From positions 372,001-436,000 of the forward strand of contig NZ_KE386573.1 in assembly GCF_000427685.1 (NCBI RefSeq): a DNA stretch of 64,000 bases. The letters run 5' to 3'. Made by a program: the position numbers and the translations under genes. This DNA is from Haloplanus natans DSM 17983. Lineage in GTDB: Archaea; Halobacteriota; Halobacteria; Halobacteriales; Haloferacaceae. Below are positions 6,317 through 45,998 of this stretch, one piece after another (position 1 is the first letter of the stretch; each line of letters opens with the position of its first letter). The notes under the pieces are model-generated. The model saw only the letters and a list, made by a program, of their open reading frames with translations, was not told where the DNA came from and did no database searches.

Positions 6317-6847
6317 TCAGCCCTCATCGACCGGCGTGCCACCGTCGGCCCCGACCGGGGCGTCGTCACCGGCCGTCCGCCCGAGTCGGCCTCCCGCCGT
6401 CTCGGCGTGGCCGGACGCGGGTACCGTCTCGCCGACTTCGCCGAGCCCCGTCGGCGGCATGTTGTTGTAGACGGCCTCGTACTCCCCCTCCCTGACGAGA
6501 TACGTCTCGTGCCAGATGCCCACGTCGCCGCCCTCGCCGATCCGGTGGTTGAACGCCTTCCACGCCGGCAGATGCTCGCCCTCGGCGTCGCGGGCGTACG
6601 CCTCCAACTTCTCGAACGACTCCCAGTACTGGACGAGGACCGGACTGCGGAGGCCGAACCAGGCCCGCGATTCGAGCAGGCCGCTCTCGGGGTCGGCTTC
6701 GAGTTCGCGGAGCATTCGGGGCATGGCGAGAAAGACGGGGAGCCACCTGTGGACCTTCCACAGCGCGTTGATACGCATGCCGATGAGAAAGACGACGAAG
6801 TCGCCGTCTACCTGTGCAGTCACTCGTTCGGGGATGATTCTCGACAT
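6317..6847 (-). CDS. DUF4188 domain-containing protein
   Basis: This 176-aa protein starts with ATG at 6847. The N-terminal 125 residues match the DUF4188 pattern as I know it: [33 protein letters not shown] and [16 protein letters not shown], a ferredoxin-like fold related to heme- or ABM-type monooxygenases. The last 35 residues are low-complexity Gly/Ala. The function is unproven. It is divergent from the next gene with an 83-nt shared upstream region. Confidence 0.8.
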
Positions 6848-6930
6848 CTCGGACGCTCCTACACTGCCGATCCGGATAGGCGTTGGTGGGCGGGCGACGC
6901 GCTTGTGTCGGTGCAGTCCTCACGCCACCC

Positions 6931-7701
6931 ATGACGACGACCGACGACCGCGTCGCCGCGGGTGTCACCGCGCTGGCGGAGCGAGCCGAGGAGCGAGCGG
7001 GCGACGAGTTCACGCGGGCGGCGTGGTTGTCCCTCGCCGAGCCGCGGCCGGCCGAGGAACTGAGCCCGTTCGACCCCGACGACCGGGGCTGGGTTGGCGA
7101 GGGGCTCCGGTGGCTGGTCGCCGCGGCCGCCGCCTACCGCGTCGCCGGCCGCGACGCCCGTGCGTCCCGACGGGGCGTCGAAGGCATCGCCGTCGCGCGC
7201 GACCTGCAGTCCTCGCTCGACGGCCCCGCCCAGTCGGCCTGTCTCGACGAGTTCGTCGCCGACTTCCGGGTCGCCGCCGGGATGAACGACGCCGAAGCGG
7301 CCTACCGCGACGCCGCGGACGCCTACCGCGACGCCGGGGCTGCCGTCGACGACACACACCGGGTGGCGACGAGCCCGCTCTTCCGTGCCGCCGCCGAACC
7401 GATCGAGCAGGTGGCCCGGGGCACCGCGAACGGCGAACTCGCCGTGAACTGGGAGGACCTCCACGGGACCGACCCGTCCGACCCCGGCGCCTTCCTCGCG
7501 CACCGGGCCACGTACAAGCGCCAGCGGTTCCCGTCACTGCTCGCCCGCGCTGTCGACGCGGGACGTCTGGCCGCCCCCCGCGGTACGACCGAGTACGGCA
7601 ACGACACCTACCGGTGTCCGGACTGTGCGTCGACGGACGTGAACTGGACCGCCGGGCGGACGCTCTGTCTGCGGTGTTCGGCGCCGATGGAGCGGCGTTA
7701 G
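6931..7701 (+). CDS. conserved haloarchaeal-type protein with C-terminal zinc ribbon
   Basis: This 256-aa protein starts at ATG 6931 (MTTTDDRVAAGVTALAER). Most of it is alpha-helical and Ala/Glu-rich. The last 35 residues hold a zinc ribbon, CPDC then CLRC 19 residues later, preceded by YGNDTYR. The C-terminal ribbon suggests nucleic-acid or protein binding, but no family is recognised. It is the last gene before an abrupt drop in GC content. Confidence 0.65.
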   Translation: MTTTDDRVAAGVTALAERAEERAGDEFTRAAWLSLAEPRPAEELSPFDPDDRGWVGEGLRWLVAAAAAYRVAGRDARASRRGVEGIAVARDLQSSLDGPAQSACLDEFVADFRVAAGMNDAEAAYRDAADAYRDAGAAVDDTHRVATSPLFRAAAEPIEQVARGTANGELAVNWEDLHGTDPSDPGAFLAHRATYKRQRFPSLLARAVDAGRLAAPRGTTEYGNDTYRCPDCASTDVNWTAGRTLCLRCSAPMERR

Positions 7702-7855
7702 CTGGCGGTTGGTGAAATCGTCGTCATGGTACCTCAACCGTATCATCATCAAGTTCCTTCGTGACGTGATGCACCGGCTGATGTTAATTTTCGCCGACCG
7801 ATTACCACCGGAAAATCAGCCATATCCGTTCCATGTCTGACGAATTCGGGGAAAG

Positions 7856-7863
7856 TTTATATA
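7856..7863 (+). promoter_or_regulatory. TATA box for the AT-rich winged-helix gene
   Basis: TTTATATA lies 26 nt upstream of ATG 7889, the spacing expected for a leaderless haloarchaeal transcript. It favours ATG 7889 over GTG 7865 and ATG 7877. Confidence 0.6.
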
Positions 7864-7888
7864 CGTGTCAGACGACATGAAAACCGTC

Positions 7889-8287
7889 ATGTCTGGGCTG
7901 GGGGAGTCTCCACTGGATGTAAAGCCGGACGCCGAAGGAATCAAACGACGACAAGCAGAATTCCTTGTTTTGTATTATCTTCGCCAACAGGAGGTCGCTT
8001 CTAAATCGGAATTGAAAACTACGGTGAAGTCTGCCGCCCGGAAGATCGCCCAAACTGATGAGGAGCCACCGATTTATTTCAATACTACCGCTGGACGGGC
8101 GACCCACCAAGGCAGAGAATTTAACGAGGTGCTTGATCGCTGTCTACATCGAAACTGGGTGGAGCGAACGATTGAGGGACAGTACGGCATAACGGACAAG
8201 GGGATTCAGCGGCTTGAAGAGATCGAACAATCCGGACAGTACGAAATCACGCAGGTACTGAATACCTTTTCTCGACACGCTGACTAA
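7889..8287 (+). CDS. winged-helix DNA-binding protein
   Basis: This 132-aa protein resembles PadR/MarR-like winged helices. KRRQAEFLVLYYLRQQEVASK forms the first helices, FNEVLDRCLHRNWVERT the recognition part and QYGITDKGIQRLEEI the wing. The start was chosen from the TATA spacing; ATG 7877 and GTG 7865 are alternatives. GC content is clearly below that of its neighbours. It is followed after 20 nt by the HD phosphohydrolase and is probably its regulator or partner. Confidence 0.75.
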   Translation: MSGLGESPLDVKPDAEGIKRRQAEFLVLYYLRQQEVASKSELKTTVKSAARKIAQTDEEPPIYFNTTAGRATHQGREFNEVLDRCLHRNWVERTIEGQYGITDKGIQRLEEIEQSGQYEITQVLNTFSRHAD

Positions 8288-8307
8288 TACTCCGTTCTGA
8301 TTGGCAA

Positions 8308-9690
8308 ATGAAGCGACTCAAAGACCCGGTACACGGGTACATACAGATCGAAGACAAATTTTTTGATCAGATAATCGACACCAGACCATTTCAACGACTC
8401 AGGGATCTTAAGCAGCTATCGGCGACGTTTATGGTGTATCCGTCTGCGAATCATACTCGATTTGAACACTCGCTGGGCGTCTTCTCCCTTGCTAAGCGCG
8501 CCTTCGACAATCTTCGCGAAAATCGTGAGTTCCGAAATGGAATCGATTGTGACGAAGTAGAAACGACGCTCCTCTGTGCAGCCTTGCTGCATGATATCGG
8601 ACACCCTCCGTTTTCGCACATCGCTGAGGAACTTCTGGATAAGTCCTTGCTGAAGTCCAAACTGGCCACTCTCGGACTCAAAAAGCGAATGGACGAGGCA
8701 GGGATCGGTAGCGTTCTGACCGATAACCATCCGCTTGACCAGAAAGCCGAACACGAACTACTGAGTTGTATCATAACGCTACGTTACTACACGTCTGCGA
8801 TTGAGGAGATGGGCGTCGACCCATACGAAGTGGCGGCGTACATCCTCGGCTATAGTATCAGGGCTGAACAAAACGAAGGGTGGCAACACAGGGTCACGTC
8901 ACATATACTTTCCTCAACGATGGATGTCGACCGTCTCGACTATGTACGCCGAGACAACTTCATGACCGGTGCAGACGTAGCAAATATCGACACTGAACGG
9001 CTCGTTTCCTCATATACCACTCACCAAAATTCGGATACCGGCGATTACGAACTGACCTTCTCCGATAACGCCCTCAGCACCGTGAGTAATTATCTTGAGG
9101 GCCGGCTTGCAGTTTATATGTGGGTCACCCAACACCACAAATCGGTGTACGCGAATGCTCTGCTACGCGAGCTCCTTACAGAATTGGATGAATATAACCG
9201 AGGGGACCTATTCACTCCGGAGAACGTTCTAGACAAGTACCTCTCCGATAGTGACGTTCGAACACGACTTCGCCGTGCTCGGGACGCAGATGAAAACGAA
9301 CGACTCTCCCGCCTGTACGACCGCTTCTTTGAACGCGATTTCCTGACTTCCTGCTGGAAACACAAACTAGGATATCAAAATAAAATTTCCATTGATGCAA
9401 GGGAGGCCTTTGAGGACAAGCTTGGAGACAACGAAACGCAGCTTGAAAAGCGAATCGCGGAAGCCATTTCGATTGATGATCGTTTCGTCTGGGTAGAGCA
9501 ATCGTACGTACCTAACTACAAGCCAGCCGATCTTCGTGACGTACAGGTGGCATACGAGGGTGAAGTACAGTCCGTCAGTGATATCGGGCTATATAAGGAA
9601 GACGACTACACTGGACCGACGCCGTATATTTTCGCCCCTAAGGGTCACAGTCACGAAATCGTGGATCTGTTGAATGACGCACTTGGCTGA
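8308..9690 (+). CDS. HD-domain phosphohydrolase (SAMHD1/dGTPase-like)
   Basis: This 460-aa HD-superfamily protein begins MKRLKDPVHGYIQI, the usual start of archaeal and bacterial SAMHD1-like proteins. Metal ligands are visible: H54 in RFEHSLG, H95-D96 in LLHDIGHPPFSH, and D206/D208 in MDVDRLDYVRRD. Family members hydrolyse dNTPs or other phosphoesters, and some deplete nucleotides in antiviral defence. Base composition and codon use (AAA, ATA, TTT) differ sharply from flanking genes, pointing to recent transfer together with the winged-helix gene. Actual substrate is unknown. Confidence 0.88.
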   Translation: MKRLKDPVHGYIQIEDKFFDQIIDTRPFQRLRDLKQLSATFMVYPSANHTRFEHSLGVFSLAKRAFDNLRENREFRNGIDCDEVETTLLCAALLHDIGHPPFSHIAEELLDKSLLKSKLATLGLKKRMDEAGIGSVLTDNHPLDQKAEHELLSCIITLRYYTSAIEEMGVDPYEVAAYILGYSIRAEQNEGWQHRVTSHILSSTMDVDRLDYVRRDNFMTGADVANIDTERLVSSYTTHQNSDTGDYELTFSDNALSTVSNYLEGRLAVYMWVTQHHKSVYANALLRELLTELDEYNRGDLFTPENVLDKYLSDSDVRTRLRRARDADENERLSRLYDRFFERDFLTSCWKHKLGYQNKISIDAREAFEDKLGDNETQLEKRIAEAISIDDRFVWVEQSYVPNYKPADLRDVQVAYEGEVQSVSDIGLYKEDDYTGPTPYIFAPKGHSHEIVDLLNDALG

Positions 9691-9707
9691 GTTACCCAGT
9701 ACATCCG

Positions 9708-10307
9708 TTACGAACGGTGGTTCGCAAACACGAACTCCGTGCTGCTTCCGAGCGGATCGGTCGCCGTCTCCGTCCGCAGGTCCACGAAGCCCGCCTCGCG
9801 GAGCTGGGCGAGCGTTCGGTCCCGCCCCGGCGCCGAGAAGAACATCCGCCCGCCCATCCACCCCTCGCGAACTGTCTCGAACCGGCTGCCGGGCAGGGTC
9901 ATCAGGAGTCGGCCGCCCGGCCGGAGGACGCGCTCGAACTCCCGGTACACGTCGGGCTGTGACTCGCGGGGGACGTGAAAGACGGCGTGGTAGGCGGTCA
10001 CGGCGTCGACGCTGTCGTCGGCGAGCGGCAGTGCGGCCATATCGCCCTGAACGAGACGTGCCTCTGGCCCCGTCTCCCGCGCGAGTTCCAGCCCCCGCCG
10101 CGACAGATCGAGGCCGACGCTCCCGGCCGGGAGGTTCGCGAGCGTCCGCGCACCATCGCCACAGCCGGCGTCGAGGACGGTCGCGTCGGGCGGGAGTTCG
10201 TCGAGCAGGTCACCGATGAGCGCGGCGTCCGAGCCCGTCGGGTCGCGCCGGCGGGCGTACGTCTCCGCGACTGCGTCCCACGCCCGCCGAATCTCGTCTC
10301 GGTCCAT
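9708..10307 (-). CDS. class I SAM-dependent methyltransferase
   Basis: This 199-aa UbiE/Methyltransf_11-type enzyme has motif I VLDAGCGDGA (residues 44-53), the acidic end of strand 2 in GLDLSRRG, the motif II region VQGDMAALPL, and the post-II VLRPGGRLLMTLPG. It begins with ATG at 10307 (MDRDEIRRAWDAVAETYARRRD), a start typical of the family. The substrate is unknown. It is convergent with the HD gene 17 nt away and divergent from the site-2 protease. Confidence 0.88.
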   Translation of the reverse strand: MDRDEIRRAWDAVAETYARRRDPTGSDAALIGDLLDELPPDATVLDAGCGDGARTLANLPAGSVGLDLSRRGLELARETGPEARLVQGDMAALPLADDSVDAVTAYHAVFHVPRESQPDVYREFERVLRPGGRLLMTLPGSRFETVREGWMGGRMFFSAPGRDRTLAQLREAGFVDLRTETATDPLGSSTEFVFANHRS

Positions 10308-32714: not shown

Positions 32715-33137
32715 GCGATCGGTCCGGCGCCCAGTCCGGGGCACGTCCCGCGCAGCATGATGTCCCAGTGGTCCAGCCCCCGGTATGACTTCGGACCGCT
32801 CGGAACGGGCGATCTGAGCGGTCGTCTCCCCGACGCTTACCGTTGCTGGCTGTTAGCACCCGAGACGATTGCTGACCGAAGCGGTTCTGTACTCGGTGCC
32901 ACTATGTGTCCGTTCGCCGTCAACCACTCTCCCACGTCACCACCGCGGAGGCGGACGTGCAGCACGACGCTGGGTAATCGCGTCTGTCGCTGTGGCTGTG
33001 AACAACGACACTGGCGGGTGGGGAGCTGTCACTCTACGGCCAGCGAGGACGAAACACTCGGTGCGACTGACGATCGAGAGCGGTCGCGTGGATGGAACGG
33101 CCGGGCGTTCGCCGTGGCACACTATGGATTTGTGGGT
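32715..33137. other. gene-free junction between core region and conjugative element
   Basis: These 423 bases contain short unconserved ORFs only. A stretch near 32760-32795 (AGTGGTCCAG, GGTATGACTTC) resembles the 5' part of a tRNA, but no anticodon or T-arm follows. The left border of the conjugative element should fall here. I could not identify direct repeats or an integrase. Confidence 0.4.
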
Positions 33138-35186
33138 CTACATGTCCGCTCCCGGATCCCTGTCGATTACCTGCTGCTCGAACTCACTCGCCCGGATCCG
33201 CAGTGGGAACCACCCCTCTTCATCCACACCGAGTAAGGCCTCCGAGTACCCATCGTCCTCGTTGCCGGCCTTCGCAGTGCGCACCCAGTCCCGCTCGCGG
33301 GCGTTCAGGCCAAACCAGTCCGCGAGCGTCTCCATTTCCTCGCGAACCCGGTGGATCAGCGTCAACGAGCACAAATTGGCGATCGTCCGTGCTTCCGGGG
33401 TGAGCGTGAACTCTCCCCCAGTTTGTGTGATGAACTGTAGTGAGAGATCGTAATGCCGACTATGACGCACGGCCGTTTCGAGAAATTCGAGGGAACTCGT
33501 CTCGTTCAGGAGATAATGAGCCTCGTCGATGACAAACACGACACGCTTGTCGGTCTGTTTCGCGCGTTCGTACACCGACTTGAACAGCACCTGCATCATC
33601 AGACTCGTTCGAGAACGGCCGCGCGTCCCCTCTTCTTGCTGGAGATCGAGATATAGGCAGTTTGAATCGAAATCCAACGTCGTTGGCTCGGCGAGATTGG
33701 CGAGATCGCCATCGGGACGGAACGATGGCCGGAGATCGGTGAGCAACGACTGCGCGTCGGCTTGGACGCGGTCCTGCTCACCGGGTGTCGCATAGCCGAA
33801 CGTCGCCGGCTCCGCGAGGAGGTCTTCGAGGACGGCGATGACATCGCGAATCGTCGGCGACGGATTATCGTGTGTCGACGGGTCACGGTCGATGCCCTGC
33901 CGTGTATAGGCCTCCTGGATGGCCCGTCTGAGTGTCTGTTTGCGCTTGCCGAGCGGGTTCGCAGCGACGTGGTCGAAGAATGTCTCGAAGAAGCTGAGCG
34001 CCCATGTAATCTGCTCGGCCCACGGATCGAGATCCGATTGCTCACGCCGGATTGCCTCGGGAACGGCCCGCAATTCGAGTGGGTTGAGGCCTCGCGTACC
34101 GCCGACCGTAATTCGGTCGCCACCGAGCACGTCGTGGAGGCCAGCAAAGCCGCCCAACGGGTCGAGTAAGACCGTCATCGTGTCGGCATCGTACATCGCC
34201 CGTCGCACGAGATGGAGTTTCGTCGAGAACGATTTCCCGGCTCCGAGCTTGCCGATCACCATCATACAGTAGCCGGTCTCTCGAGCGAAGCGATCCAGAA
34301 TGAGCGGGCTCTCGTTGAGCGCGTACGTGCCGTATTCGATTCCCGGTTCCGCGACCGTCCCCGCGACGAAGGGGAACATCGCGCTGATGGCCCCCGCGAG
34401 CATCGGCGTCGTCGTTTCGAACTCCGTGTCCAATCGATTCACGCCGATCGGGCTCACGGAGACGAGGGCGTCCAACTGTGCCCACCGCGGCGTGATGGGG
34501 GTCAGGTTCGCCGGCGATTGTCGTGCCGCCCGCCGAACCGGCCCGGCGTCGATCCGGTCGGCCTCATTGTGCCGCGTCGTTAATAGCATCGCCACGTCGA
34601 ACGCCTGGACCGGTGTGTTCCGCAACACGTCGTACAGGTCGCGATGGTCGTTCAGATCCTTCTTGACGCCGCGTGCGCCTGCTCGCCGTCGGTCGGCCAA
34701 ATACTCGAAATCAGCTTCGAGATCCTCGATTCGGTTTTCGAGGCCGTCGAGTGTCGCCTGTGTCTCTCGTGGTTCGATGTGGAGACTGATGTCTGTCCGC
34801 CGCGTCTCCGGTGTCGCGTACAGCGTCTCGAAGAGCCCATCTCTCGGCATATCCGGGAATTCGCCGATCCAAAGTGTCTGTGTCCAGTCTGTCCCCGCCC
34901 GTACCGCACCGGGGCGACACGTCAGTGTCGATGGGCCAACGACACGTCGCTGGCGTGTCTGCCCGTCACTCGGTGGCCTGTCGGTCGGATCGTAGCTCAC
35001 TGATGCCGTTGTCGCCGTCGATTCTGCGCCAGTCGCCGCTTCCTGTCCCCTGTCCGAATGGTCCGCTCGCTCGGGGGTGGCTCCCCTCTCTCTACCGTCC
35101 GCACTGGCGCTCAGAGCTGTCTCCGCACCCGCCTCCGTGTCCGTGGTGTCTCCCCCACGCATCCAGCGACGGAGCCAATCGATCAT
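33138..35186 (-). CDS. virB4: VirB4-like conjugative transfer ATPase
   Basis: This 682-aa protein has Walker A GKLGAGKS at residues 312-319, Walker B VVFVIDEAH at 549-557, and a downstream QFITQTGGEF sensor motif. The C-terminal EVRIRASEFE-type end (PLRIRASEFEQQV) is typical of VirB4/TraC. The N-terminal 90 residues are polar and low-complexity. It powers pilus assembly and substrate transfer from the cytoplasmic face of a type IV secretion channel. The start overlaps the stop of the upstream gene by 4 nt (ATGA). Confidence 0.9.
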   Translation of the reverse strand: MIDWLRRWMRGGDTTDTEAGAETALSASADGRERGATPERADHSDRGQEAATGAESTATTASVSYDPTDRPPSDGQTRQRRVVGPSTLTCRPGAVRAGTDWTQTLWIGEFPDMPRDGLFETLYATPETRRTDISLHIEPRETQATLDGLENRIEDLEADFEYLADRRRAGARGVKKDLNDHRDLYDVLRNTPVQAFDVAMLLTTRHNEADRIDAGPVRRAARQSPANLTPITPRWAQLDALVSVSPIGVNRLDTEFETTTPMLAGAISAMFPFVAGTVAEPGIEYGTYALNESPLILDRFARETGYCMMVIGKLGAGKSFSTKLHLVRRAMYDADTMTVLLDPLGGFAGLHDVLGGDRITVGGTRGLNPLELRAVPEAIRREQSDLDPWAEQITWALSFFETFFDHVAANPLGKRKQTLRRAIQEAYTRQGIDRDPSTHDNPSPTIRDVIAVLEDLLAEPATFGYATPGEQDRVQADAQSLLTDLRPSFRPDGDLANLAEPTTLDFDSNCLYLDLQQEEGTRGRSRTSLMMQVLFKSVYERAKQTDKRVVFVIDEAHYLLNETSSLEFLETAVRHSRHYDLSLQFITQTGGEFTLTPEARTIANLCSLTLIHRVREEMETLADWFGLNARERDWVRTAKAGNEDDGYSEALLGVDEEGWFPLRIRASEFEQQVIDRDPGADM

Positions 35187-36208
35187 CGCGATCCTCCCAC
35201 GACCGGTCGCGTCGTGATCACACGGTCGGCATCCTCGTACTCGACGTGCTCACCGCGCCAGAACGTGGCAAGCACTTCAGCCGCCTCCGACGCCGAAATA
35301 CGCTCGACGTCACACCCGTCGATACCACGCAATCCAGTCCGAAGCTGCCGGACGCGGTCGTCAACGGCCTCGAACATCGCCGCCCGCTCCTCGTCTTGTC
35401 GTGGCGCACAGACTGCCTCGATGAACACTCCGAGTACGGGAAGCCGCGTGAGTTGTTGGGTCAGACTCTGCTGCTCGAAGCGAACCTCAGCCGGACTGAC
35501 CGGCACGATGACGTAGTGATCGCGGATCGTCATCCGCCGCTGTTCGAGCTCCGTTCGGTACCACGAGATGTACTCGTCGATGAGTGTGGCCAACTGGGGA
35601 TTGTTGCGCACGTCTGCATCGGTTCGCCGCGCCTCGTAGTGGGCGAGATACTCGTCGACCGGGAACGGCCGGGTGGTTGAGTACAGCTGGATCGGAAACT
35701 CGACCGATGTGTTCAGAAACTCTTGGAAGGCATCAGCCTTCGCGGCCCACTCGCTGTCGGTTGCCAGCGCCATCGGTGGCGGTGTCACCTGAATCACCCC
35801 GACGAAAGCCCCGTCGGTCCGCTCGATCACGTCGTGATCGGGATGCATCGCCGTGACGTGCGTGTGTGCGAGCGTGTCCGGATGGGGAATGTGACTGGGA
35901 CGCCACTGGAAGCCTAGGATCATTCCAAGCCATTGGGCGGTCGTGAGATACGCCGGCGTCAAGTAGACCACGATCCCGCCCAGTGCGATGGCCACTGCGG
36001 TCGCCGGGAGCGTGAACGTCGCGAGTCGATAGCCAGCCACGGTCGTCGCCGGTGGAATGAGTACTTGGAGCACGAGTGCAACGACCACCCCCGGGAAGGC
36101 GCCGACCGCCAAATCAGTCAGGGTGTAGCGTCCGAATACGTTCGCGTCCGTCTCGATCGATTTGGGGATGCGCTTACTTGCCGTCCGCGTGGTTTTGTCG
36201 TTCGACAT
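35183..36208 (-). CDS. PrgI/VirB4-N-like conjugation membrane protein
   Basis: This 341-aa protein has two adjacent hydrophobic segments near residues 30-90 (LAVGAFPGVVVALVLQVLI, LPATAVAIALGGIVVYLTPA). A soluble region of about 250 residues resembles the N-terminal half of VirB4 (GAFVGVIQVTPPPMAL, DEYISWYRTELEQRR). This matches a PrgI-type membrane anchor plus an ATPase-lacking VirB4 partner. It is coupled to virB4 by a 4-nt overlap. Confidence 0.8.
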   Translation of the reverse strand: MSNDKTTRTASKRIPKSIETDANVFGRYTLTDLAVGAFPGVVVALVLQVLIPPATTVAGYRLATFTLPATAVAIALGGIVVYLTPAYLTTAQWLGMILGFQWRPSHIPHPDTLAHTHVTAMHPDHDVIERTDGAFVGVIQVTPPPMALATDSEWAAKADAFQEFLNTSVEFPIQLYSTTRPFPVDEYLAHYEARRTDADVRNNPQLATLIDEYISWYRTELEQRRMTIRDHYVIVPVSPAEVRFEQQSLTQQLTRLPVLGVFIEAVCAPRQDEERAAMFEAVDDRVRQLRTGLRGIDGCDVERISASEAAEVLATFWRGEHVEYEDADRVITTRPVVGGSR

Positions 36209-36228
36209 ACGTTCGGTGTGGTTCTCAG

Positions 36229-37650
36229 TTATTCGTCAGTGCGATCACTGGACTGGGTAGAGCGGTTATCAGTCGGCCCCGACTCCTGCTCGAACAGGAT
36301 CGGTTCGTTTTCGGTGCGGTCGAAGTCAGTCGGCTCGAAGCGATCCTGATCGAACTGAACGGGGGACTGGTCTTGACGGCCATCGGAGTGGGCGGGAGAG
36401 CCGCCGAGACGGCGCGTGGCACGCCGGAGTCGCCCACCCAAGCGATGGCTGCGAGACCGTGTCACACCGGAGCGGAGTTCGGTCTGCCCGTCGCGGCCGA
36501 TGGCTCGCTGCCCGCGGATGCCACGGAGCGCGTTTCGCCCCTCGTTGGCGAGTGCGACCCCCTGCTCGCGGCCATGTTCGAGTCGTGTCTGGAGACGCCG
36601 TCGGGATACCTGCCGACCCAAGCGATCACCGATGAACAACACGGCCCCGGCTTGCCAGAACAAGACAAACGGGACGACCAGTGCGACGAAGGGAATGACC
36701 ATCGCCGTGAGCCAGGCACCGATCCCGCCCATCGAGAGCTCCGCTGCATCGCCCAATAGTGCGGCCAGCCGCAGGAGCAGGGCCGTCGGTAGTGGCATGA
36801 CCAGAAACGGCACGTAGAAGCCGGCGAGCCGCTTCGCAACCCGCGAGAGGAGTCGGAACGGGCCAACACCAGGAATCCACGCGACGATGAGCAGTGGCAT
36901 CCCGAGTACGAATCCATAGAGCGCGAGCCGGCGCGTCAGATACACAAGCGCTAACAGCACAAACACGCCGAGATCGACGCTCAGGGAGACGAGGACGCCA
37001 AGCAGCCCGATCCCACCGAACGACGCCGTCTGGAACAGCGTGAGCGTGCTGAGATCAGGCAGCAGCAGCATCGCGAGGTGGTCCGCGAGCTGGAGAGACG
37101 CCGCGGCGAGCCACCACCACGAGAGCACGCCGAACAGCCCACTGATCGAGCGCCGCTTGAGATTCGCGCGGTGGTAGCTGCTGAACAACGTGCTGGTCGT
37201 CTCTAGCAGGATCACGATCCCGATCGCTAGCCCAAACAGCAGGAGCGCCAGTGGAATCATTGTCGTCCAGTAGAACCGATGGAGGGTTGGCCACGGGAGC
37301 GTCGTTGGCGTCTGGAATACTCGAGTCGGTGCGGGTGTCTCGACGATCAGCCGTAACAGACTGTCCCCATGTGTTTCGATGAGGTCCGTCACCGGCGCGA
37401 ACAGCGTCCGGAGAAACGTCTCAAGCGCACTGATCAAGGCATTCACGAGTGCGCCGATACTGATACCGCCATTACCGCTGCTACCCCCGTCGCCGCTTGT
37501 CTGTGCTGTTCCTTCGCCGACCAACCAGACGAGACTGATACCGACTCCACCGAGTAGGTGGCACAGTCGACTCCACCAGAGGCTGCGCCCCCATCCCTTA
37601 CTGGTGAGCGTCGGTCGTCTCTGCCGCGGTTTCGATTGTGACCCAGTCAT
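36229..37650 (-). CDS. VirB6/TrbL-like polytopic conjugation protein
   Basis: This 473-aa protein has about eight membrane segments between residues 25 and 340 (for example ALLLFGLAIGIVILLETTST, LLGVLVSLSVDLGVFVLLAL, AMVIPFVALVVPFVLFWQAG). An Arg-rich and then acidic cytoplasmic tail of about 130 residues follows. Size and topology fit VirB6/TrbL, the inner-membrane channel of type IV secretion. It lies 20 nt upstream of the PrgI-like gene in one operon. Confidence 0.75.
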   Translation of the reverse strand: MTGSQSKPRQRRPTLTSKGWGRSLWWSRLCHLLGGVGISLVWLVGEGTAQTSGDGGSSGNGGISIGALVNALISALETFLRTLFAPVTDLIETHGDSLLRLIVETPAPTRVFQTPTTLPWPTLHRFYWTTMIPLALLLFGLAIGIVILLETTSTLFSSYHRANLKRRSISGLFGVLSWWWLAAASLQLADHLAMLLLPDLSTLTLFQTASFGGIGLLGVLVSLSVDLGVFVLLALVYLTRRLALYGFVLGMPLLIVAWIPGVGPFRLLSRVAKRLAGFYVPFLVMPLPTALLLRLAALLGDAAELSMGGIGAWLTAMVIPFVALVVPFVLFWQAGAVLFIGDRLGRQVSRRRLQTRLEHGREQGVALANEGRNALRGIRGQRAIGRDGQTELRSGVTRSRSHRLGGRLRRATRRLGGSPAHSDGRQDQSPVQFDQDRFEPTDFDRTENEPILFEQESGPTDNRSTQSSDRTDE

Positions 37651-37677
37651 CGTGTGTCCCCTCCGCGCCGGAATCGT

Positions 37678-38097
37678 TCAGAACGTACAATTCGCCCCAC
37701 CAGCGACGACATTGTTCAGGATGAACTGGATGATCGTTGTGCCGAGGGGCGCCACGATAACTCCCCAGACGATCCCCTGATTACGGAGTTCCTTGATCTC
37801 GCGCTTGAGATCTGAGCGACGAATCGTCGGTAACGCAACGGTCGCACCGAGCGCGATGACTCCGCCGACCAGTGGGCCGCCAAACTGGATCAACTGGAAG
37901 AGGTTGAAGATCGTCTGTGCGAGCGCTGATTGACAGAAGGACTCCCCCACTGACTGAGCCGCGACCGGATGCGTACAGACCACTACTACTAGAACGAGTG
38001 TGGTCCAACGGCGGTGCCACCGCCGATGCCCAACCCAGCGGGCTGTGTGTCTTGACAGCCGACGCCACATCGTTCGGATCTGAGTACTTCCCTGCAT
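37678..38097 (-). CDS. VirB2-like pilin
   Basis: This 139-aa protein has a basic N-region and a hydrophobic signal (TTLVLVVVVCTHPVAAQSVG) with likely cleavage after AAQ. Two membrane segments follow (FGGPLVGGVIALGATVALP, GIVWGVIVAPLGTTIIQFIL) separated by a short basic loop, the VirB2/TrbC pilin design. It lies 27 nt upstream of the VirB6-like gene and is probably the first gene of the transfer operon. A start at Met10 is possible. Confidence 0.75.
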   Translation of the reverse strand: MQGSTQIRTMWRRLSRHTARWVGHRRWHRRWTTLVLVVVVCTHPVAAQSVGESFCQSALAQTIFNLFQLIQFGGPLVGGVIALGATVALPTIRRSDLKREIKELRNQGIVWGVIVAPLGTTIIQFILNNVVAGGANCTF

Positions 38098-38239
38098 AGC
38101 GACTGGCGCACCATCGGTGCCACGATTCCCCGGCGCCGATAGCGGCTACCGGCAGCTCACACCTGTCAGAAATAAAAACTCGGATAAAAATATCAGTACT
38201 GATATCGCAGTGCCGCTTACTGTTCGAGCCGTGGGAAAA

Positions 38240-39442
38240 TCATTCTGTAGACATATCAAATCGCTCACGAAGCCGCGCTTCTCGCGCTTCGAACTGGCTC
38301 ACCTGGTCGCGTAACTCGTCAGTGACTCGTTCGAGTTGTGCGAGCGCTGCTTGGCTCTCGATGCCGGTCTGCCCGTCGGCGTCAGTCTCGGCGGCCGCGC
38401 GGTCCGCGTACGTTCGTTGCACCTGCTCCAGCGTCGCTTCGGGGTTGAACAGGATGTCGTTGGCCGTCCGCACGTACCGATCGAGCGCTGTGCCTTCCTT
38501 CCCGGTGAAGGCGTGGGTGAGGGCGTACGTCGCCCCCGAGTGGAGCGTCCACATATCCGGCGCGAACGGATCGCCCGCGTTTGCCCGCGCATCGGTCGCT
38601 GCCTGTGTGGCGAGGTAGTCCGGGAATTCGAGCAGGCTGTAGAACTCCTCGAGATCGAACGGCACGCTCGTCAGATCGAGCGTCACGTCCTGTGCGTCCT
38701 CGATGAACGCCGCGAGATCGCTGCGAAGCAGCCCGACCTGTTCGAGGAGCTGTTCCCACCACACGTCGAAATCGGCCACGTCACCGACGTGTCTGACTGT
38801 CTCTCGATCCGTCAACGATCGAATTGAATTCGCACACGCCGTATCGCGGGCGAAGCCTTCGACGTACACCGCATGATTCCCGAAGAAATCGTAGCCAGAG
38901 GTGAGCCCCATCGTGATCGGCTCGCTCCGCTCCGGGAGCGTCACGCTGAGCCCGTCGAACATGATGTCCATGTGCACCTCGCCGCCACCCCGGTACTGCC
39001 GCATCTCGCCGAAGACGAGGTCACCGAGCGGTTGCCCCTCGTACGCCGTCTCGCGGAGGACGGCTTCGAGTGGGCTGTAGACATCAACCGGATTGATGAT
39101 CGCGTACGACGATGTTGGGATGTGAAAGAGGGGATCGTCAGCGGCTTCACCGCCCCGCCCCGCAGCCGTGCCACCGTCCGTCGACGGCTGACGATGGTCG
39201 GCCTGTCGCTCCAGTCGACTCGGCTCCACGACGGCGCTGAACCGCTCCGTCGATACCCACTCGTCCGTGTAGGGATTCTTGTACGCCACCGTTGTCTCCG
39301 TCGCCCGCGGCAGTCGTCGCACCGCTTCTGCGAACGACACTGGGTCTGCGTCTGGCCGCGTTCGCTCGTACCACGCTGGCAGGCCTGCGTCTGTTCGGTT
39401 GTCGACACCACTGAATACCAGTCGCTCGTCTGGGTCGTTCAT
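38240..39442 (-). CDS. DUF932-like plasmid/mobile-element protein
   Basis: This 400-aa protein starts at ATG 39442 (MNDPDERLVFSGVDNRTDAG). The middle region, YDFFGNHAVYVEGFARDTACANSIRSL followed by RHVGD, resembles the core of DUF932 proteins carried by plasmids and phages. A coiled-coil C-terminus (AALAQLERVTDELRDQVSQF) follows. The function is unknown. A 5' hairpin of the family described at 39472-39496 lies 29 nt upstream of the start. It is separated by 142 nt from the pilin operon. Confidence 0.6.
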   Translation of the reverse strand: MNDPDERLVFSGVDNRTDAGLPAWYERTRPDADPVSFAEAVRRLPRATETTVAYKNPYTDEWVSTERFSAVVEPSRLERQADHRQPSTDGGTAAGRGGEAADDPLFHIPTSSYAIINPVDVYSPLEAVLRETAYEGQPLGDLVFGEMRQYRGGGEVHMDIMFDGLSVTLPERSEPITMGLTSGYDFFGNHAVYVEGFARDTACANSIRSLTDRETVRHVGDVADFDVWWEQLLEQVGLLRSDLAAFIEDAQDVTLDLTSVPFDLEEFYSLLEFPDYLATQAATDARANAGDPFAPDMWTLHSGATYALTHAFTGKEGTALDRYVRTANDILFNPEATLEQVQRTYADRAAAETDADGQTGIESQAALAQLERVTDELRDQVSQFEAREARLRERFDMSTE

Positions 39443-39471
39443 TCTCGAAGTCCTGCAGGCCCCCGATTGCA

Positions 39472-39496
39472 GGCGCCTGCGCCCGTCGCAGGCGCC
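39472..39496 (-). promoter_or_regulatory. 5' hairpin family, H1 (upstream of the DUF932-like gene)
   Basis: GGCGCCTGCG-CCCGT-CGCAGGCGCC is a perfect 10-bp stem with a 5-nt loop (ACGGG on the coding strand). It lies 29 nt upstream of the minus-strand start at 39442 and is preceded on that strand by TGGTTTTGT. Related hairpins with other stem sequences precede the starts at 42263, 43269, 43835, 53919 and 59580. Confidence 0.65.
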
Positions 39497-39574
39497 ACAA
39501 AACCAGACCGTGTTGGCTCGGCGGACGGGGTTCGCTGTCTTGCAGCGCGCTCTGATCAGGCAGAACGCCCGCAT

Positions 39575-39715
39575 TCACTCCGTTTCGACGGCTATCCCGC
39601 GGATTTCGAAATGAGTCATCGTCGCTGTCAGGACCGACTTGTTGTGGACCGCAGCCACCGCTACGTTGGATGCACTGGAGACGCCAGCATTGGCGTCACT
39701 CCCTGCGTCGTCCAT
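39575..39715 (-). CDS. possible 46-aa ORF downstream of the broken toxin
   Basis: This ORF begins MDDAGSDANAGVSSASNVA and ends with a plausible beta-strand segment (VLTATMTHFEIRGIAVETE). The open frame extends upstream without a start codon, which suggests a remnant of a longer gene. It has no recognisable family and may not be translated. Confidence 0.3.
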   Translation of the reverse strand: MDDAGSDANAGVSSASNVAVAAVHNKSVLTATMTHFEIRGIAVETE

Positions 39716-39827
39716 GGAAGCAAGCGATTCGTCCACTGTCCGTGCACTCGCTTCATCGATCTCGTTCCGGGGAATCCTCGCCGCTGGATGCGTCGAGAAC
39801 GGAATCGGCTCCCTGTACGTTCCGTCG

Positions 39828-40336
39828 TCACTCGTACTCCTCGATCTTCTGAAGCAGTCTCGCGTAGAGATTCGGCGCACAGTACCAGCCGGCATCCACC
39901 ATCGCATCGATCGTCGTCCGGGATTCCGCAGCCGTAAGCCGACCCTGTTGCAACAGACGTGGCACGAGATACGCTGTCCCCTTGGTTTCGAACCCTTCGG
40001 CTGCAGCGACAGCACGACCGTACTGCTCGTCCATCACCGCCGTCGCATTCGATTCGACAGCAATTGTGAGCACCGCCGCGTCGGCATCGCTGAGGCGATC
40101 GTTCTCTTGCAATCGGGCGAATCGCGTCTCATCCGCAACCGATCGCCGGTCGAGCAGGCCACCCACAACCGCTTTGTCGATCCGCCTCGCATCTGTGTGT
40201 CCACGCTCGACGCCGACGGTAACCACTTCGTCGTACACGCGGTTGGGCACGACACACGCTGTCGTAAGCCCGTCGAGAAATGCCAACCGCTCCACGGTTG
40301 CGAGATAAATGAGCGGCGTCGCGTGAAGACGTACAT
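39828..40336 (-). pseudogene. DUF3368/PIN-type toxin, frameshifted at its first codons
   Basis: From ATG 40336 the sequence reads MYVF and then loses frame. Adding one G after TTC (near 40324) gives MYVFDATPLIYLATVERLAF, the classic start of DUF3368 PIN-like toxins, continuing in frame to TGA at 39828. The missing base removes the first catalytic Asp. Later acidic residues (LSDADAAVLTIAVE, AVMDEQYGRA) remain. The gene lies 3 nt after its antitoxin gene. Either the toxin is dead or the base is a sequencing error. Confidence 0.75.
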
Positions 40337-40339
40337 CGC

Positions 40340-40720
40340 TCAGAGCGACTCGATATCTTCAGCTAATTGATCACCTCCGACCCAGGTAATCTCGTGTTCT
40401 CTAGCAAGCTGTGCGAAATCCCAGACCGACATCTCCGCCAGTTCGGCCGCCCGACTGAACGTCACGTCCCCGGATTCCAACTTCTTCAGGGCACGCTCAC
40501 GTCGCCACTGATCGGGTCCGTTCATGAGCAGCTTGCGGACGGCAGTACTTCGGTCGAGGTCCTCTGCTTCGAGATACGCCTCCAGGTCGGCCTCCAGATC
40601 GTCCGGGACGCGGGCGGATATCGTTCCAATAGTGTTTAGAATGTGTACAATAAATACAAAGCTTCCGCCGGTCGAGTCGTCGTCACCGGCCAGCGCGCGT
40701 CGCGCTAGCCCGATGTTCAT
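40340..40720 (-). CDS. UPF0175-family antitoxin
   Basis: This is a 126-aa ORF from ATG 40720. The conserved part starts at GTISARVPDDLEADLEAYLE, an RHH-like region, then RRERALKKLESGDVTFSRA and AAELAEMSVWDFAQLA. UPF0175 proteins pair with DUF3368 toxins as here. The first 30 residues are not conserved and include the edge of palindromic element copy D. The natural start may be the ATT codon at 40628-40630, where family members start with ATG. Confidence 0.8.
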   Translation of the reverse strand: MNIGLARRALAGDDDSTGGSFVFIVHILNTIGTISARVPDDLEADLEAYLEAEDLDRSTAVRKLLMNGPDQWRRERALKKLESGDVTFSRAAELAEMSVWDFAQLAREHEITWVGGDQLAEDIESL

Positions 40721-40801
40721 ACTGCCGGCTGTAAGTCAATCAAGATATTCGCCATCCCGGGATGGCGAATGTCTTGAAACAGTTACAGCCGACAGTATCA
40801 G
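40718..40801 (-). repeat. Stop-codon-linked palindromic element, copy D
   Basis: This element lies between the antitoxin and the gene ending at 40798. The minus strand reads CTGATACTGTCGGCTGTAAC, then TGTTTCAAGACATTCGCCATC and the paired return arm, ending GACTTACAGCCGGCAGTATG. It shares the outer TGTAACTGTTT and TGACTTA blocks with copies B and C while the stem sequence differs. The TGA at 40798-40800 is the stop codon of the minus-strand gene. Confidence 0.6.
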
Positions 40802-41286
40802 TACCGCACCTCCGCGGGCACGATCCACACTGGGCCGTCCTGTTCCAACACCGCATCGAGGCGCTCGCGGTGCCGAATCCCCAGTCCGTACTGATCGTAG
40901 ACGTAGATGGTCGGTCCCTCCGCAGCACCCAACTCGCTACACAGTCGCCGTATCCCATCGGCATCGCTCATGAGATCGAGCGACGAGTGAGCACGGAGCG
41001 CTTCGCATACCTGTTCCAATCGATCGAGAAACGCCGTCAGCGTCTCCGCCCATTGGCGTTCGAGGAGCGACGCGCCCGGTTCCGTTCGAACCGTCGTCGC
41101 ACGTGGCCACGTCCCCCAGCGATCAGTGAGGGCCGGCGTGGGCTCTGCAAACGTTGTGTACGATTCGAACACGGGCTCACGCGCCCCCGCACCGACGAGT
41201 CGGTCGAACGTACAGCGACTGACGGAGAATGCCTCATCCCCGTCCGCGGCCGGCACGAGCGCCGTGACGAGCATCCGTTGGACCAT
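40798..41286 (-). CDS. hypothetical protein cotranscribed with TFB
   Basis: This 162-aa protein starts at ATG 41286, with GTG 41292 as an alternative that overlaps the TFB stop. Recognisable features are only a central helical segment (WAETLTAFLDRLEQVCEALR) and the C-terminal TIYVYDQYGLGIRHRERLDA, which recalls a short nuclease or NTPase strand. No family is assigned. It is almost certainly translated with the TFB gene. Confidence 0.6.
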   Translation of the reverse strand: MVQRMLVTALVPAADGDEAFSVSRCTFDRLVGAGAREPVFESYTTFAEPTPALTDRWGTWPRATTVRTEPGASLLERQWAETLTAFLDRLEQVCEALRAHSSLDLMSDADGIRRLCSELGAAEGPTIYVYDQYGLGIRHRERLDAVLEQDGPVWIVPAEVRY

Positions 41287-41288
41287 CG

Positions 41289-42263
41289 TCACCGCCCCTC
41301 CGTCGTCGCCGTGCGTGACGACTCCACGTCGTGGAGTACCTCACACAGATCCTGCCAACCCTCTCGGAGCGTCACTGGCGTCACGTCCGCCACCGCTGCC
41401 AGCTCTTGTTGCGTCCAGTCCTGACCCTGCTCTCGTGTCGCGTGATAGAGACACGCCGCGGCGATCCCCGAGGGCTTTCGCCCGTTCGCCACGCCCGTCT
41501 CGACAGCGAACTCGGCGAGTTCGAGCGCCCGTTTTCGGAGTCGAGCCGCGACGCCCAGCGCAGAGGCGAACTTCGGAACGAAGTCACGCGGTGTCTGTGG
41601 CACTGCTGGCAGTCCGAGTTCGTCGTTGAGGACACTGTAGGCGTTGCGAACACGCTCCGTCGTGACTCGTGCGACGGCGCCGACCTCGTCGACCGATCGC
41701 GGCAACCCGGTACATCGACACGCTGCATGGACGCTCGCTGCCGCCACCCCTTCGATCGATCGTCCACGGAGGAGATCCGCACGCTGCGCCCGTCGAAACA
41801 CCATAGCTGCTTGCTCGTCAAGGGAGTCCGTGAGATCAAGCACGCCGACGATCCGCGAGATTTCTTGGAGGCCGAATTCGAGATTCCGTTCCCGCTTCGA
41901 GCCGTGTCGTGCCCGGCGATGCTGGGTTCGCAATCGCCGCAGCCGACGCTGCCGCGCCCCATCGAGTTGGTCGCCCGTTCCGTCTCGGAACCGCCCGATT
42001 TGCGTCGTGAGGCCGCCGTCGTGCATCGTCGCCGTCCGTGGGGCGCCGATGTGTCGCGGATCCTTGTTCGACTCCGGTGCCGACCACGCTGTCGCCCCGT
42101 GGTCAATGTGATAGTCGTCGACGATCAGCCCACAGCCAGTACAGTGTCGTTCGCCACCGTCCGCGACCACGTTGCCATCGCACTCGGGACACGCCGCATC
42201 CGCGTCGATTGATCGGTCGGTCGATTCGTCGAATCCTGTCTCGTAGACATCGCCTGGATGCAT
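41289..42263 (-). CDS. tfb: transcription initiation factor IIB (TFB)
   Basis: This 324-aa TFB starts at ATG 42263. Zinc ribbon: CPECDGNVVADGGERHCTGCG (residues about 25-45). The B-reader/linker region is followed by two cyclin repeats, the first with SIEGVAAASVHAACR and the second with KPSGIAAACLYHATREQGQD. TFB recruits RNA polymerase to TATA/TBP promoters, and haloarchaea use many paralogues. A plasmid-borne copy may redirect host transcription. The 5' region carries hairpin H2 and has been duplicated at 43231-43343. Confidence 0.93.
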   Translation of the reverse strand: MHPGDVYETGFDESTDRSIDADAACPECDGNVVADGGERHCTGCGLIVDDYHIDHGATAWSAPESNKDPRHIGAPRTATMHDGGLTTQIGRFRDGTGDQLDGARQRRLRRLRTQHRRARHGSKRERNLEFGLQEISRIVGVLDLTDSLDEQAAMVFRRAQRADLLRGRSIEGVAAASVHAACRCTGLPRSVDEVGAVARVTTERVRNAYSVLNDELGLPAVPQTPRDFVPKFASALGVAARLRKRALELAEFAVETGVANGRKPSGIAAACLYHATREQGQDWTQQELAAVADVTPVTLREGWQDLCEVLHDVESSRTATTEGR

Positions 42264-42337
42264 CGATATTCCTGCGAGGCACGAATTCTTGCGCCCCGCA
42301 CCCGTGGGGGGCGCGCATAACCACACCGGGCGATAGC
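42225..42337. repeat. 113-bp direct repeat, TFB 5' region, copy 1
   Basis: This colinear 113-bp copy of 43231-43343 differs at about five positions. It covers the first 13 codons of tfb, the 5' untranslated region and hairpin H2. It is a recent duplication of a promoter plus start region. Confidence 0.8.
42291..42314 (-). promoter_or_regulatory. 5' hairpin family, H2 (upstream of tfb)
   Basis: GCGCCCC (42291-42297) pairs with GGGGCGC (42308-42314) around a loop with ACGGG on the coding strand. It is 27 nt from the tfb start and preceded by GTGTGGTTATGC. Confidence 0.6.
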
Positions 42338-42497
42338 CCGTTTTCTGTCCGTCGCGTCGTCCTATCGCCATCCGGCGTGGATGCGGATCGCAGGAGCGAT
42401 GTCGCTGGCACGGCTCTCCCACAACACGACATGCCGCAACTCAGGTGACGGTCACCGACGGCTGCGCACCGTTGCGAACCGTTCTCATCGTGGCGAG

Positions 42498-42878
42498 CTA
42501 CTCGGATGGTTGCTCCTCAATCGAGATCCGATCACCAGTCACCTCGTCAAAGGCCGAATCCGACGAAATAATTGGATCGGTATCGGCGTAGGCGACATGG
42601 TATGCGTCGAACGCGGTGAGGCCATACTGGTCCATATAGTCTGCCGCTTGGAAGAGCACCGTCTCGTCCTCCGGAACGGACGCAATCTCAAGCGTGTAGC
42701 TAAGTGCTTCCATTCGATCAAACTCGAATCGGTCGGAGATCATCAGTAACTCAAGTAGCGTTGCTCGCGACGTGTAGATCTCGCCCTCGTGCTCCGTCGC
42801 GATCGTCGCTGCTCGTTGCTGGAGCCAGTCGTCGTCCTTCACAAGTGCGATGAAAAAATCCGTGTCGGCGTAGATCAT
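42498..42878 (-). CDS. VapC-type PIN-domain toxin
   Basis: This 126-aa PIN protein has acidic residues in MIYADTDFFIALV, the Glu in ATLLELLMI, DAYHVAYA and SSDSAFDEV. PIN toxins are Mg-dependent endoribonucleases acting on tRNA or mRNA. Its ATG overlaps the stop of the AbrB antitoxin by 4 nt, the usual antitoxin-first arrangement. Moderate AT content suggests a separate origin from neighbours. Confidence 0.9.
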   Translation of the reverse strand: MIYADTDFFIALVKDDDWLQQRAATIATEHEGEIYTSRATLLELLMISDRFEFDRMEALSYTLEIASVPEDETVLFQAADYMDQYGLTAFDAYHVAYADTDPIISSDSAFDEVTGDRISIEEQPSE

Positions 42879-43138
42879 CCGCGCTCTGACTCCGTGACAT
42901 CCTTGAGCGTGTCCTCGCGAGCCGCGTCACGAGCGTCTTGTTTTATTTCGGCGATCGATTTCCCTTCGAACGCATCGCCAACAGCCTCTCGAAGTCCCGC
43001 AACCGGGTCCTCTTGCAGCGGGATCAATTCAACTCGATCGCTGAGCTCAACGATCCGATATCGGTCCCCGTGCTTTTTCCGGATCTCGGATGGAATGACA
43101 ATCCGCCCCCGATCGTCGGCCTCGGTTGTCTTACTCAT
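42875..43138 (-). CDS. AbrB-family antitoxin
   Basis: This 87-aa swapped-hairpin AbrB protein starts at ATG 43138: MSKTTEADDRGRIVIPSEIR, RYRIVELSDRVELIP, followed by an acidic C-terminal toxin-binding tail. It binds VapC and autoregulates the operon. An upstream in-frame start at 43180 lies in the promoter and is rejected. Confidence 0.88.
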   Translation of the reverse strand: MSKTTEADDRGRIVIPSEIRKKHGDRYRIVELSDRVELIPLQEDPVAGLREAVGDAFEGKSIAEIKQDARDAAREDTLKDVTESERG

Positions 43139-43149
43139 GTTAGTCCCCT

Positions 43150-43269
43150 CTACCCGGAGAAGACACAAAAATACTCCCACAATTCATACGAAGTTCCCCG
43201 TGACGGCGTAGATGATTCCCTTCCGGCCGATTCGTCGACTCCTGTCTCGTAGACATCGCCTGGCTGCAT
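43150..43269 (-). pseudogene. duplicated N-terminal stub of TFB
   Basis: ATG 43269 opens MQPGDVYETGVDESAG, matching the first 16 residues of tfb, and then runs into unrelated sequence ending EYFCVFSG at TGA 43150. The upstream promoter and hairpin H3 are also duplicated. Any transcript from this promoter would read into the AbrB-VapC operon 12 nt away, so the duplication may have captured a promoter for the toxin-antitoxin genes. Confidence 0.7.
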
Positions 43270-43343
43270 CGATACTCCTGCGAGGCACGAATTCTTGCGC
43301 CCCGCACCCATCGGGGGCGCGCATAACCACACCGGGCGATAGC
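43231..43343. repeat. 113-bp direct repeat, TFB 5' region, copy 2
   Basis: Direct partner of 42225-42337. Together they flank the AbrB-VapC pair, suggesting that the module arrived or was duplicated between the two copies. Confidence 0.8.
43297..43320 (-). promoter_or_regulatory. 5' hairpin family, H3 (duplicated copy)
   Basis: GCGCCCC (43297-43303) and GGGGCGC (43314-43320) form the stem; the loop reads GATGGG on the coding strand. It lies 27 nt from ATG 43269. Confidence 0.55.
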
Positions 43344-43367
43344 GTGCGTCGGTGCGCTCGCAGCTCG

Positions 43368-43835
43368 TCAGGCCTCGTCGTCGCCGGCGTCGACTGGAAG
43401 CGACTTCCGACCGGCGTCGACACATGGCCAGCAGGGAAGGCGATCGCCCGGGTGACACGCACAGTCTGCTGGCGCTGACTCCGTCTCACCGCCGTCGTCG
43501 GTGCCGGCGCCACTATCGACGTGATTGTTGGCCGTCCCGCCATCGGCTGCGACGGCCGCCTCGATCGCCATGTCGAGCACTTTCGATCGGATGGCGAGGC
43601 CGACACGGTGTTTGCACGCTCGCGCATACTCCACATCTGCGGGACACGTACAGTTGATCGGGAGCCCATCCGCAATCCCGATACGGTAGCTGTGGTTTTC
43701 GGGGTCCGGATAACTGTAATTTCGCACTTCGACGTACGGTGGCCGGATGAAGAAGGCGAGCGCTTCGTACTGTGCGCGTTTCAGGACGCGTGGCGAAACA
43801 TCTAATCGGTCGAGTGGGTGTTGCTCACTGGCCAT
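43368..43835 (-). CDS. SWIM zinc-finger protein
   Basis: This 155-aa protein starts at ATG 43835 (MASEQHPLDRLDVSPRVLKR). The SWIM motif CxCx(n)CxH is CTCPADVEYARACKHRVGLAI. A second cysteine cluster near the C-terminus (CACHPGDRLPCWPC) may bind another zinc. SWIM proteins bind DNA or proteins in recombination and are common on haloarchaeal plasmids. Hairpin H4 lies 23 nt upstream. Confidence 0.82.
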   Translation of the reverse strand: MASEQHPLDRLDVSPRVLKRAQYEALAFFIRPPYVEVRNYSYPDPENHSYRIGIADGLPINCTCPADVEYARACKHRVGLAIRSKVLDMAIEAAVAADGGTANNHVDSGAGTDDGGETESAPADCACHPGDRLPCWPCVDAGRKSLPVDAGDDEA

Positions 43836-43858
43836 TGGAACACGCGGGGCCGGGGGAA

Positions 43859-43883
43859 GCGCCCCGCGCCCGTCGCGGGGCGC
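43859..43883 (-). promoter_or_regulatory. 5' hairpin family, H4 (upstream of the SWIM gene)
   Basis: GCGCCCCGCG-CCCGT-CGCGGGGCGC is a perfect 10-bp stem. Loop and geometry are identical to H1 although the stem differs. It is preceded on the coding strand by CCGGTTTGGTTGTGC. Confidence 0.65.
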
Positions 43884-43944
43884 GCACAACCAAACCGGGC
43901 CGCGACGACAGCCCCCACACACCGCCTAGCGATCGGTCGTCCCC

Positions 43945-44048
43945 GTTTCCGGAAGTACTACACCCCGATCGGCACACCGCGCCAAATCGATCGCCAATCG
44001 CCCATCTACGCTCGGTTTACCGAGCCGAGTGCGCTCCTTTCCGGAAAC
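43945..44048. other. candidate origin-like inverted pair beside orc1/cdc6
   Basis: GTTTCCGGAA (43945-43954) and its exact reverse complement TTCCGGAAAC (44039-44048) flank about 84 nt immediately upstream of the Orc1/Cdc6 start at 44099. A small hairpin (CTCGG-TTTA-CCGAG) lies between them. Haloarchaeal origins have inverted ORB repeats next to orc genes; these repeats are shorter than usual, so the call is tentative. Confidence 0.35.
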
Positions 44049-44098
44049 GACGCGAGCACGTTTTATGAGCTGACGCGAAAACAGCGAGCTACGAGCAG

Positions 44099-44656: not shown

Positions 44657-44857
44657 AGGGACAAGCCGGGATCGGACGTATTCACTCGCCGATACGAGGA
44701 CATCAACTTGACCCGCGCAAGCACCGCCATCTCTCGCTAGATTGCCCACTCGCGAGCGAAGCACGTCGGAGTCAGCAGCCGCTCTGACCGGTGACTACAG
44801 GGCACCGCTGATCGAGCCGCCAGTCGCGACCGTACGGGTGAGCTGACGACCTCGCTC

Positions 44858-45022
44858 TCACGGTTCACTATCGGAGTCGTCGCGTCGCGAAACGACGATG
44901 CCCGCGACGAACGACACCACCCCTAATCCGATGAGACCGATGGTAAGCCCTCTGCCGGATAACAGCAGTCCCGCGCCAACAAGTACCGCAGCAGTTGCGT
45001 GGAGTATCGCCGTCGGGTTCAT
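44858..45022 (-). CDS. small two-TM membrane protein
   Basis: This 54-aa protein starts at ATG 45022 (MNPTAILHATAAVLVGAGLL). The hydrophobic segments ATAAVLVGAGLLLSG and TIGLIGLGVVSFVAGIVVS are separated by Gly-Arg, with an acidic tail after RR. No family is recognised. The 200 nt between it and the orc remnant hold no other gene. Confidence 0.5.
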   Translation of the reverse strand: MNPTAILHATAAVLVGAGLLLSGRGLTIGLIGLGVVSFVAGIVVSRRDDSDSEP

Positions 45023-45980: not shown

Positions 45981-45998
45981 GGGAAGTCAAGATGGCGC

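Follow-up and report, generated by a model that had tools for sequence, protein, structure and literature searches.

SAMHD1 restricts viruses in animals through destruction of DNA precursors. To our knowledge, the antiphage dNTPases characterised in bacteria fall in a different branch of the HD superfamily. A solved dNTPase structure with nucleotides bound is available for Enterococcus faecalis EF1143 (2o6i, 3irh, 4lrl), for which we know of no winged-helix partner. Clover is a two-gene unit of the dGTPase CloA and the nucleotidyltransferase CloB. The dGTPase can be toxic alone and is held in check by the partner enzyme; CloA is similar to SpdGTPase and relies on an HE dyad (PMC12265719).

Here we describe a pair of genes in a 64-kb window (the whole stretch of DNA that was analysed), which is a piece of a haloarchaeal chromosome contig (G000:C7:372001-436000). 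The second gene encodes an HD protein. Like SAMHD1 from human and its orthologues, this protein has the fold over nearly its whole length, the HD metal ligands, counterparts of His210 and His215, and D24/Q29/R32 in the place of D137/Q142/R145 of the activator site AL1. Unlike SAMHD1, it has no SAM domain, shares about 20% identity and is encoded beside a predicted winged-helix partner, and its activity is predicted here. EF1143 is similar in size and fold (Z 32-33), but only about 25% identical. The locus shares with Clover the plan of an HD dNTPase and a putative regulator in a two-gene unit; the HD protein is of another branch than CloA, however, and the partner is a winged-helix protein instead of a nucleotidyltransferase. 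No nucleotidyltransferase match was found in this partner, the only other gene product of the insertion. Partner-less HD proteins from haloarchaea such as Halorubrum, Natronococcus and Halobacterium are 41-50% identical and have the same active-site residues, but their genes have host-like GC and stand in loci without the winged-helix gene. In the literature searched, which excludes most subscription papers, we found no archaeal dNTPase of SAMHD1 type paired with a winged-helix protein.

The initial annotation had likened the pair to HD dNTPases of antiphage nucleotide depletion that are linked to a small regulator. An HD protein of dNTPase type and a small winged-helix partner that move together were indeed found, but the type is that of SAMHD1 and EF1143 and not that of the bacterial antiphage dGTPases. 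The SpdGTPase type would share with the HD protein the superfamily and nucleotide depletion, whereas the dGTPase model of PADLOC and the antiphage-dGTPase models of NCBIfam matched only the first ~115 residues; NF041026 scored 32 bits where its cut-off is 400, and TIGR01353 scored 49 where 152 is required. Judged by these scores, the HD protein is outside the bacterial antiphage dGTPase branch. No family-level match to any defence model was found for the pair.

An insertion between two resident genes

The features of the locus are listed in Table 1. Two ORFs were called on the plus strand at 7865-8287 and 8308-9690. The winged-helix gene has a GC of 0.51 and the HD gene one of 0.50, far under the 0.67-0.75 seen in the three nearest genes, and their GC3 (0.53 and 0.55, neighbours 0.87-0.89) gives the two lowest values among the 56 ORFs retained by selection in the window. 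The initial annotation had thus correctly noticed two lower-GC genes between high-GC genes. The span of 7856-9690 that it gave them contains both genes but falls short of the insertion on both sides, and its first eight bases are a TATA box.

Table 1. Positions of the pair, its promoter element and its neighbours in the window.
Feature	Position	Strand	Description or basis
Left neighbour, resident gene	6883..7701	+	272-aa protein without family assignment
Whole insertion	7702..9721	n/a	~2,020 bp, GC 0.50; blastn against two congeners and junction alignment
TATA box TTTATATA of the operon	7856..7863	+	Identical octamer at equal distance in L056
Winged-helix gene	7889..8287	+	ORF, AlphaFold model, relative in L056
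HD phosphohydrolase gene, SAMHD1/EF1143 type	8308..9690	+	460 aa; 20 bp downstream of the winged-helix gene
Right neighbour, resident gene	9708..10307	-	Class I methyltransferase

In blastn comparisons with the congeners G076 (L054) and G073 (L055), homology to the window ended at 7695/7702 and picked up again at 9722. In both congeners the left-neighbour and methyltransferase genes are adjacent and convergent, with overlapping stop codons. Because the flanks abut in these two genomes and homology breaks at the above positions, the insertion is placed inside the ancestral overlap. Alignment of the two empty sites indicated that ~4-6 bp of the overlap were replaced; the last codons and the stop of the methyltransferase gene were altered and a new end was gained. 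The flanking region was compared in seven of the 11 other genus members. A clean empty site was seen in two, and the other five were uninformative, the 272-aa gene being unmatched within the stretch compared. The pair was absent from all 11 congeners searched: the winged-helix gene was found in none of them, and the best HD matches were only at the level of the core paralogue (E 9.9e-22 to 1.8e-24 and alike). Synteny of the genes in all close relatives had been set beforehand as an argument against the initial reading; either gene was closely matched in one of 12 genus genomes, its own included, so that this reading was not refuted. The pair is a clean, horizontally acquired insertion, and close relatives show the empty site.

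At its ends, neither terminal repeats nor a target-site duplication could be detected. No tRNA gene was detected in the window, and neither integrase nor transposase was found among the seven neighbouring proteins scanned. Entry through a recognisable mobile element is therefore unsupported.

Other parts of the window also attracted attention. A second AT-rich gene (58142-59230, minus strand, GC 0.54) encodes a metallo-beta-lactamase-fold protein that matches PADLOC LmuA (9.5e-11) and RTasMBL (2.9e-7), and is possibly a defence-related insertion. The stretch at about 33100-51000 has a lower GC of about 0.60-0.64, carries an AAA/TraG-like ATPase, a TrbL/VirB6-like protein and two PIN-domain genes, and looks like an integrated conjugative-type element. 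Part of a 1268-aa ORF at 59790-63596 (plus strand) matches PADLOC mad8 (1e-9).

Fold and active-site residues of the HD protein

Pfam domains HD (2e-9) and HD_assoc_2 (1e-5) were detected in the HD protein, and phmmer matched it to 2q14 at 8.8e-30 and to SAMHD1 at about 3e-19. An AlphaFold model from 23 sequences (pLDDT 80.7, pTM 0.84) has a SAMHD1-type fold, with confidence dropping in the C-terminal third. Foldseek returned EF1143, BT4208, Aquifex O67745 and SAMHD1 as top matches. VIA-align, applied to Foldseek's own matches, so that a family not listed there could still fit, gave Z of 30-33 over 360-406 residues overall. The individual values were Z 33.5, rmsd 3.4 and 360 aligned residues for 2hek, Z 32.9, rmsd 3.6 and 389 residues for EF1143 (4lrl), and Z 32.2, rmsd 3.6 and 395 residues for SAMHD1 (4bzc). 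By VIA-align and phmmer the fold is that of the SAMHD1 HD domain across the whole protein.

In an HMM alignment to SAMHD1, H54, H95, D96 and D208 fall on His167, His206, Asp207 and Asp311, and H99 falls on His210; these SAMHD1 residues bind metal or take part in catalysis (PMC7045340). D24, Q29 and R32 align with D137, Q142 and R145, the GTP-reading residues of AL1 (PMC7045340; PMC12042053). All of H54, H95, D96, H99, H104, H149, D208 and D24/Q29/R32 are invariant in the 23 aligned haloarchaeal sequences, H149 being the counterpart of SAMHD1 His233 by position only. We take H104 and R51 to be the counterparts of His215 and Arg164, and we assume the exact register of all SAMHD1 residue numbers on the alignment. 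T274 presumably lies near Tyr374, a possible difference in sugar recognition. Sequence and model together make a (d)GTP-activated dNTP triphosphohydrolase the very probable identity of the HD protein, and we consider it likely that it has enzymatic activity.

The winged-helix partner and relatives of the pair

A second copy of the pair was found in a metagenome-assembled haloarchaeon, G161 (L056/L079). The first base of the TATA box precedes the ATG by 33 nt in the window and in L056 alike (L056 box 6691-6698, ATG 6724). Since the box and its distance match those in this close relative, ATG 7889 is the probable start of the small gene, in place of 7856 or 7865; the protein has 132 aa from this ATG and would have 140 aa from GTG 7865. 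No conserved operator beyond the TATA box was found in the comparison of the two promoter regions, where four common 7-mers were observed and 4.3 expected. A GTCTGAC/GTCAGAC inverted repeat surrounds the TATA box in the window (7835-7874); no counterpart was found in G161, and the number of such repeats is within chance (reached by 29 of 300 shuffles).

The model of the small protein, built from two sequences (pLDDT 69.6), has winged-helix topology, with helices at 23-42, 47-64 and 79-95 and wing strands at 99-101 and 107-109. Its other matches were weak: MarR was the top Foldseek match (E 0.006), and PF24409 (E 0.006) and Mrr_N (E 0.024) were below the Pfam cut-off. The protein is 48-53% identical to its L056 relative. 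The recognition helix and wing are identical at 24 of 32 residues, compared with only three of 18 in helix 2, which points to a conserved binding surface. Between the window and the G161 copy, pN/pS is 0.46 for the winged-helix gene and 0.25 for the HD gene, with saturated synonymous sites (pS about 0.8). On these ratios both genes look maintained as proteins under purifying selection.

The winged-helix gene occurred in two of 170 family genomes, the window's own and G161. As in the window, the gene in G161 is directly upstream of the HD gene. The two HD proteins are nearest relatives (69% identity, next best 51%), and no other L056 protein in the comparison with the window gave a match besides the two of the pair, so the two sites are unrelated. 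Given that the single recurrence of the winged-helix gene in the genomes searched also immediately precedes the sister HD gene, and at an unrelated site, the two genes are read as travelling as a unit, an association and mobility seen in n = 2 copies of the pair, one of them in a metagenome assembly. Profile searches of 392 order-level and 392 phylum-level genomes matched only the window's copy of the winged helix; G161, absent from these matches, was either not drawn or missed. The winged-helix gene was not found in plasmid records, and viral contigs yielded no related gene. Weak winged-helix matches occurred in three further genomes (E 0.003-0.009). The translation of the G143 match resembles part of an integrase, the other two had no supporting neighbour gene, and all three were dropped as chance matches.

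The G161 pair is flanked by two repeat copies (L056 6402-6529 and 8647-8774, 94% over 128 nt). The repeat is a dispersed, MITE-like element of ~112 nt with terminal inverted repeats; it was found in none of seven other genomes searched, nor in the window's genome. A composite transposon was considered and rejected, because G161 contains at least 41 matches to the repeat (40 of 200 candidates were scored) and the flanking may be coincidence. No empty site for the G161 pair was definable in G159 or G160, where its two flanking genes are far apart.

HD relatives are far more widespread than the pair. HD matches at E below 1e-80 were present in 43 of 170 family genomes and some HD match in 168, mostly core paralogues; the window's genome has its own core paralogue at G000:C7:1814533. 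Among 49 HD-relative loci from public genomes, the winged helix was present in one, that of G161. An HD gene was extracted from 48 of the loci: the 47 partner-less genes have GC within -0.03 to +0.04 of their flanks, and the G161 gene is 0.07 below. The partner-less relatives are chromosomal, several in recurrent neighbourhoods. Such genes of host-like GC in many haloarchaea suggest an ordinary metabolic role for the wider HD family. In the trees, the two paired HD proteins form one clade (100/100 against the other labelled group). In one tree this clade branches as sister to the whole set of 45 partner-less relatives; it has no resolved place among them in a reduced tree, from which L114 and L076, both long-branch rows, and two of the four core rows were omitted. 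L116 and L120 (under 440 aa) and L121 (no ORF extracted) were outside both trees. A Klebsiella phage record (L153 2415-3947) holds a related HD gene one gene from the phage integrase, which suggests that HD relatives occur as prophage cargo.

Proposed role of the pair and competing explanations

The two genes were co-transferred in the insertion, and the second product has the SAMHD1-type fold with conserved catalytic and AL1 residues. As a mechanism, we propose a two-gene operon gained by horizontal transfer, whose second product would be a SAMHD1/EF1143-type dNTP triphosphohydrolase. Binding of (d)GTP at the AL1-like site would lead to assembly and switch-on, and the activated enzyme would convert dNTPs to deoxynucleoside and triphosphate. 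The winged-helix protein would restrain or trigger the HD enzyme, most likely via DNA binding, with either the promoter of its own operon as the target or foreign DNA as the signal. We find such control of the HD enzyme somewhat probable. The host's core HD paralogue would keep the housekeeping role, and the acquired pair would most likely cut dNTP pools during DNA-virus infection or plasmid entry. The antiviral role is a tentative proposal, with the balance slightly against it. A transferred, winged-helix-controlled, (d)GTP-activated dNTPase operon that lowers dNTPs against virus or plasmid is our best explanation as a whole, though at somewhat less than even probability. A horizontally moved dNTPase module under winged-helix control is the best reading, for which an antiviral function is plausible. 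The fullest version, a previously undescribed antiviral archaeal module that joins a SAMHD1-type (d)GTP-activated dNTPase and a winged-helix sensor or brake in a minimal 2-kb cassette, seems rather unlikely.

The pair may instead be accessory metabolic cargo that tunes dNTP pools in nucleotide salvage or in adaptation to slow growth; the winged helix would then be a conventional regulator of transcription, and there would be no antiviral role. The chromosomal position, host-like GC and recurrent neighbourhoods of the partner-less relatives favour this explanation, as do the HD matches, mostly core paralogues, in nearly all family genomes. The pair itself, however, has atypical GC, a patchy spread and unrelated sites, and looks more accessory than housekeeping; we regard metabolic cargo as possible but doubtful. 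Addiction of the toxin-antitoxin kind would make the HD protein toxic via dNTP depletion, checked by the winged helix through binding and operon repression. The small gene stands first, the 20-bp spacing and conserved order make a compact mobile unit, and Clover shows that a lone dNTPase can be toxic and may have to be restrained by a partner (PMC12265719). Against this, the 47 HD relatives in haloarchaeal loci have no partner, so the HD family in general needs no such antitoxin, and an addiction pair appears improbable. HD-fold enzymes are diverse, and the lower AlphaFold confidence in the C-terminal third leaves room for hydrolysis of something besides dNTPs, such as another nucleotide or a signalling molecule; the whole-length fold match to SAMHD1 and EF1143 and the retained catalytic and AL1 residues make this very improbable.

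If the proposed antiviral module is real, nucleotide starvation in the style of SAMHD1, antiviral in animals, would also exist in archaea, under a regulator of a new kind. A mobile, partnered archaeal enzyme of SAMHD1 type would test the antiviral age of the SAMHD1 branch, and the same case would show how prokaryotes restrain so dangerous an enzyme.
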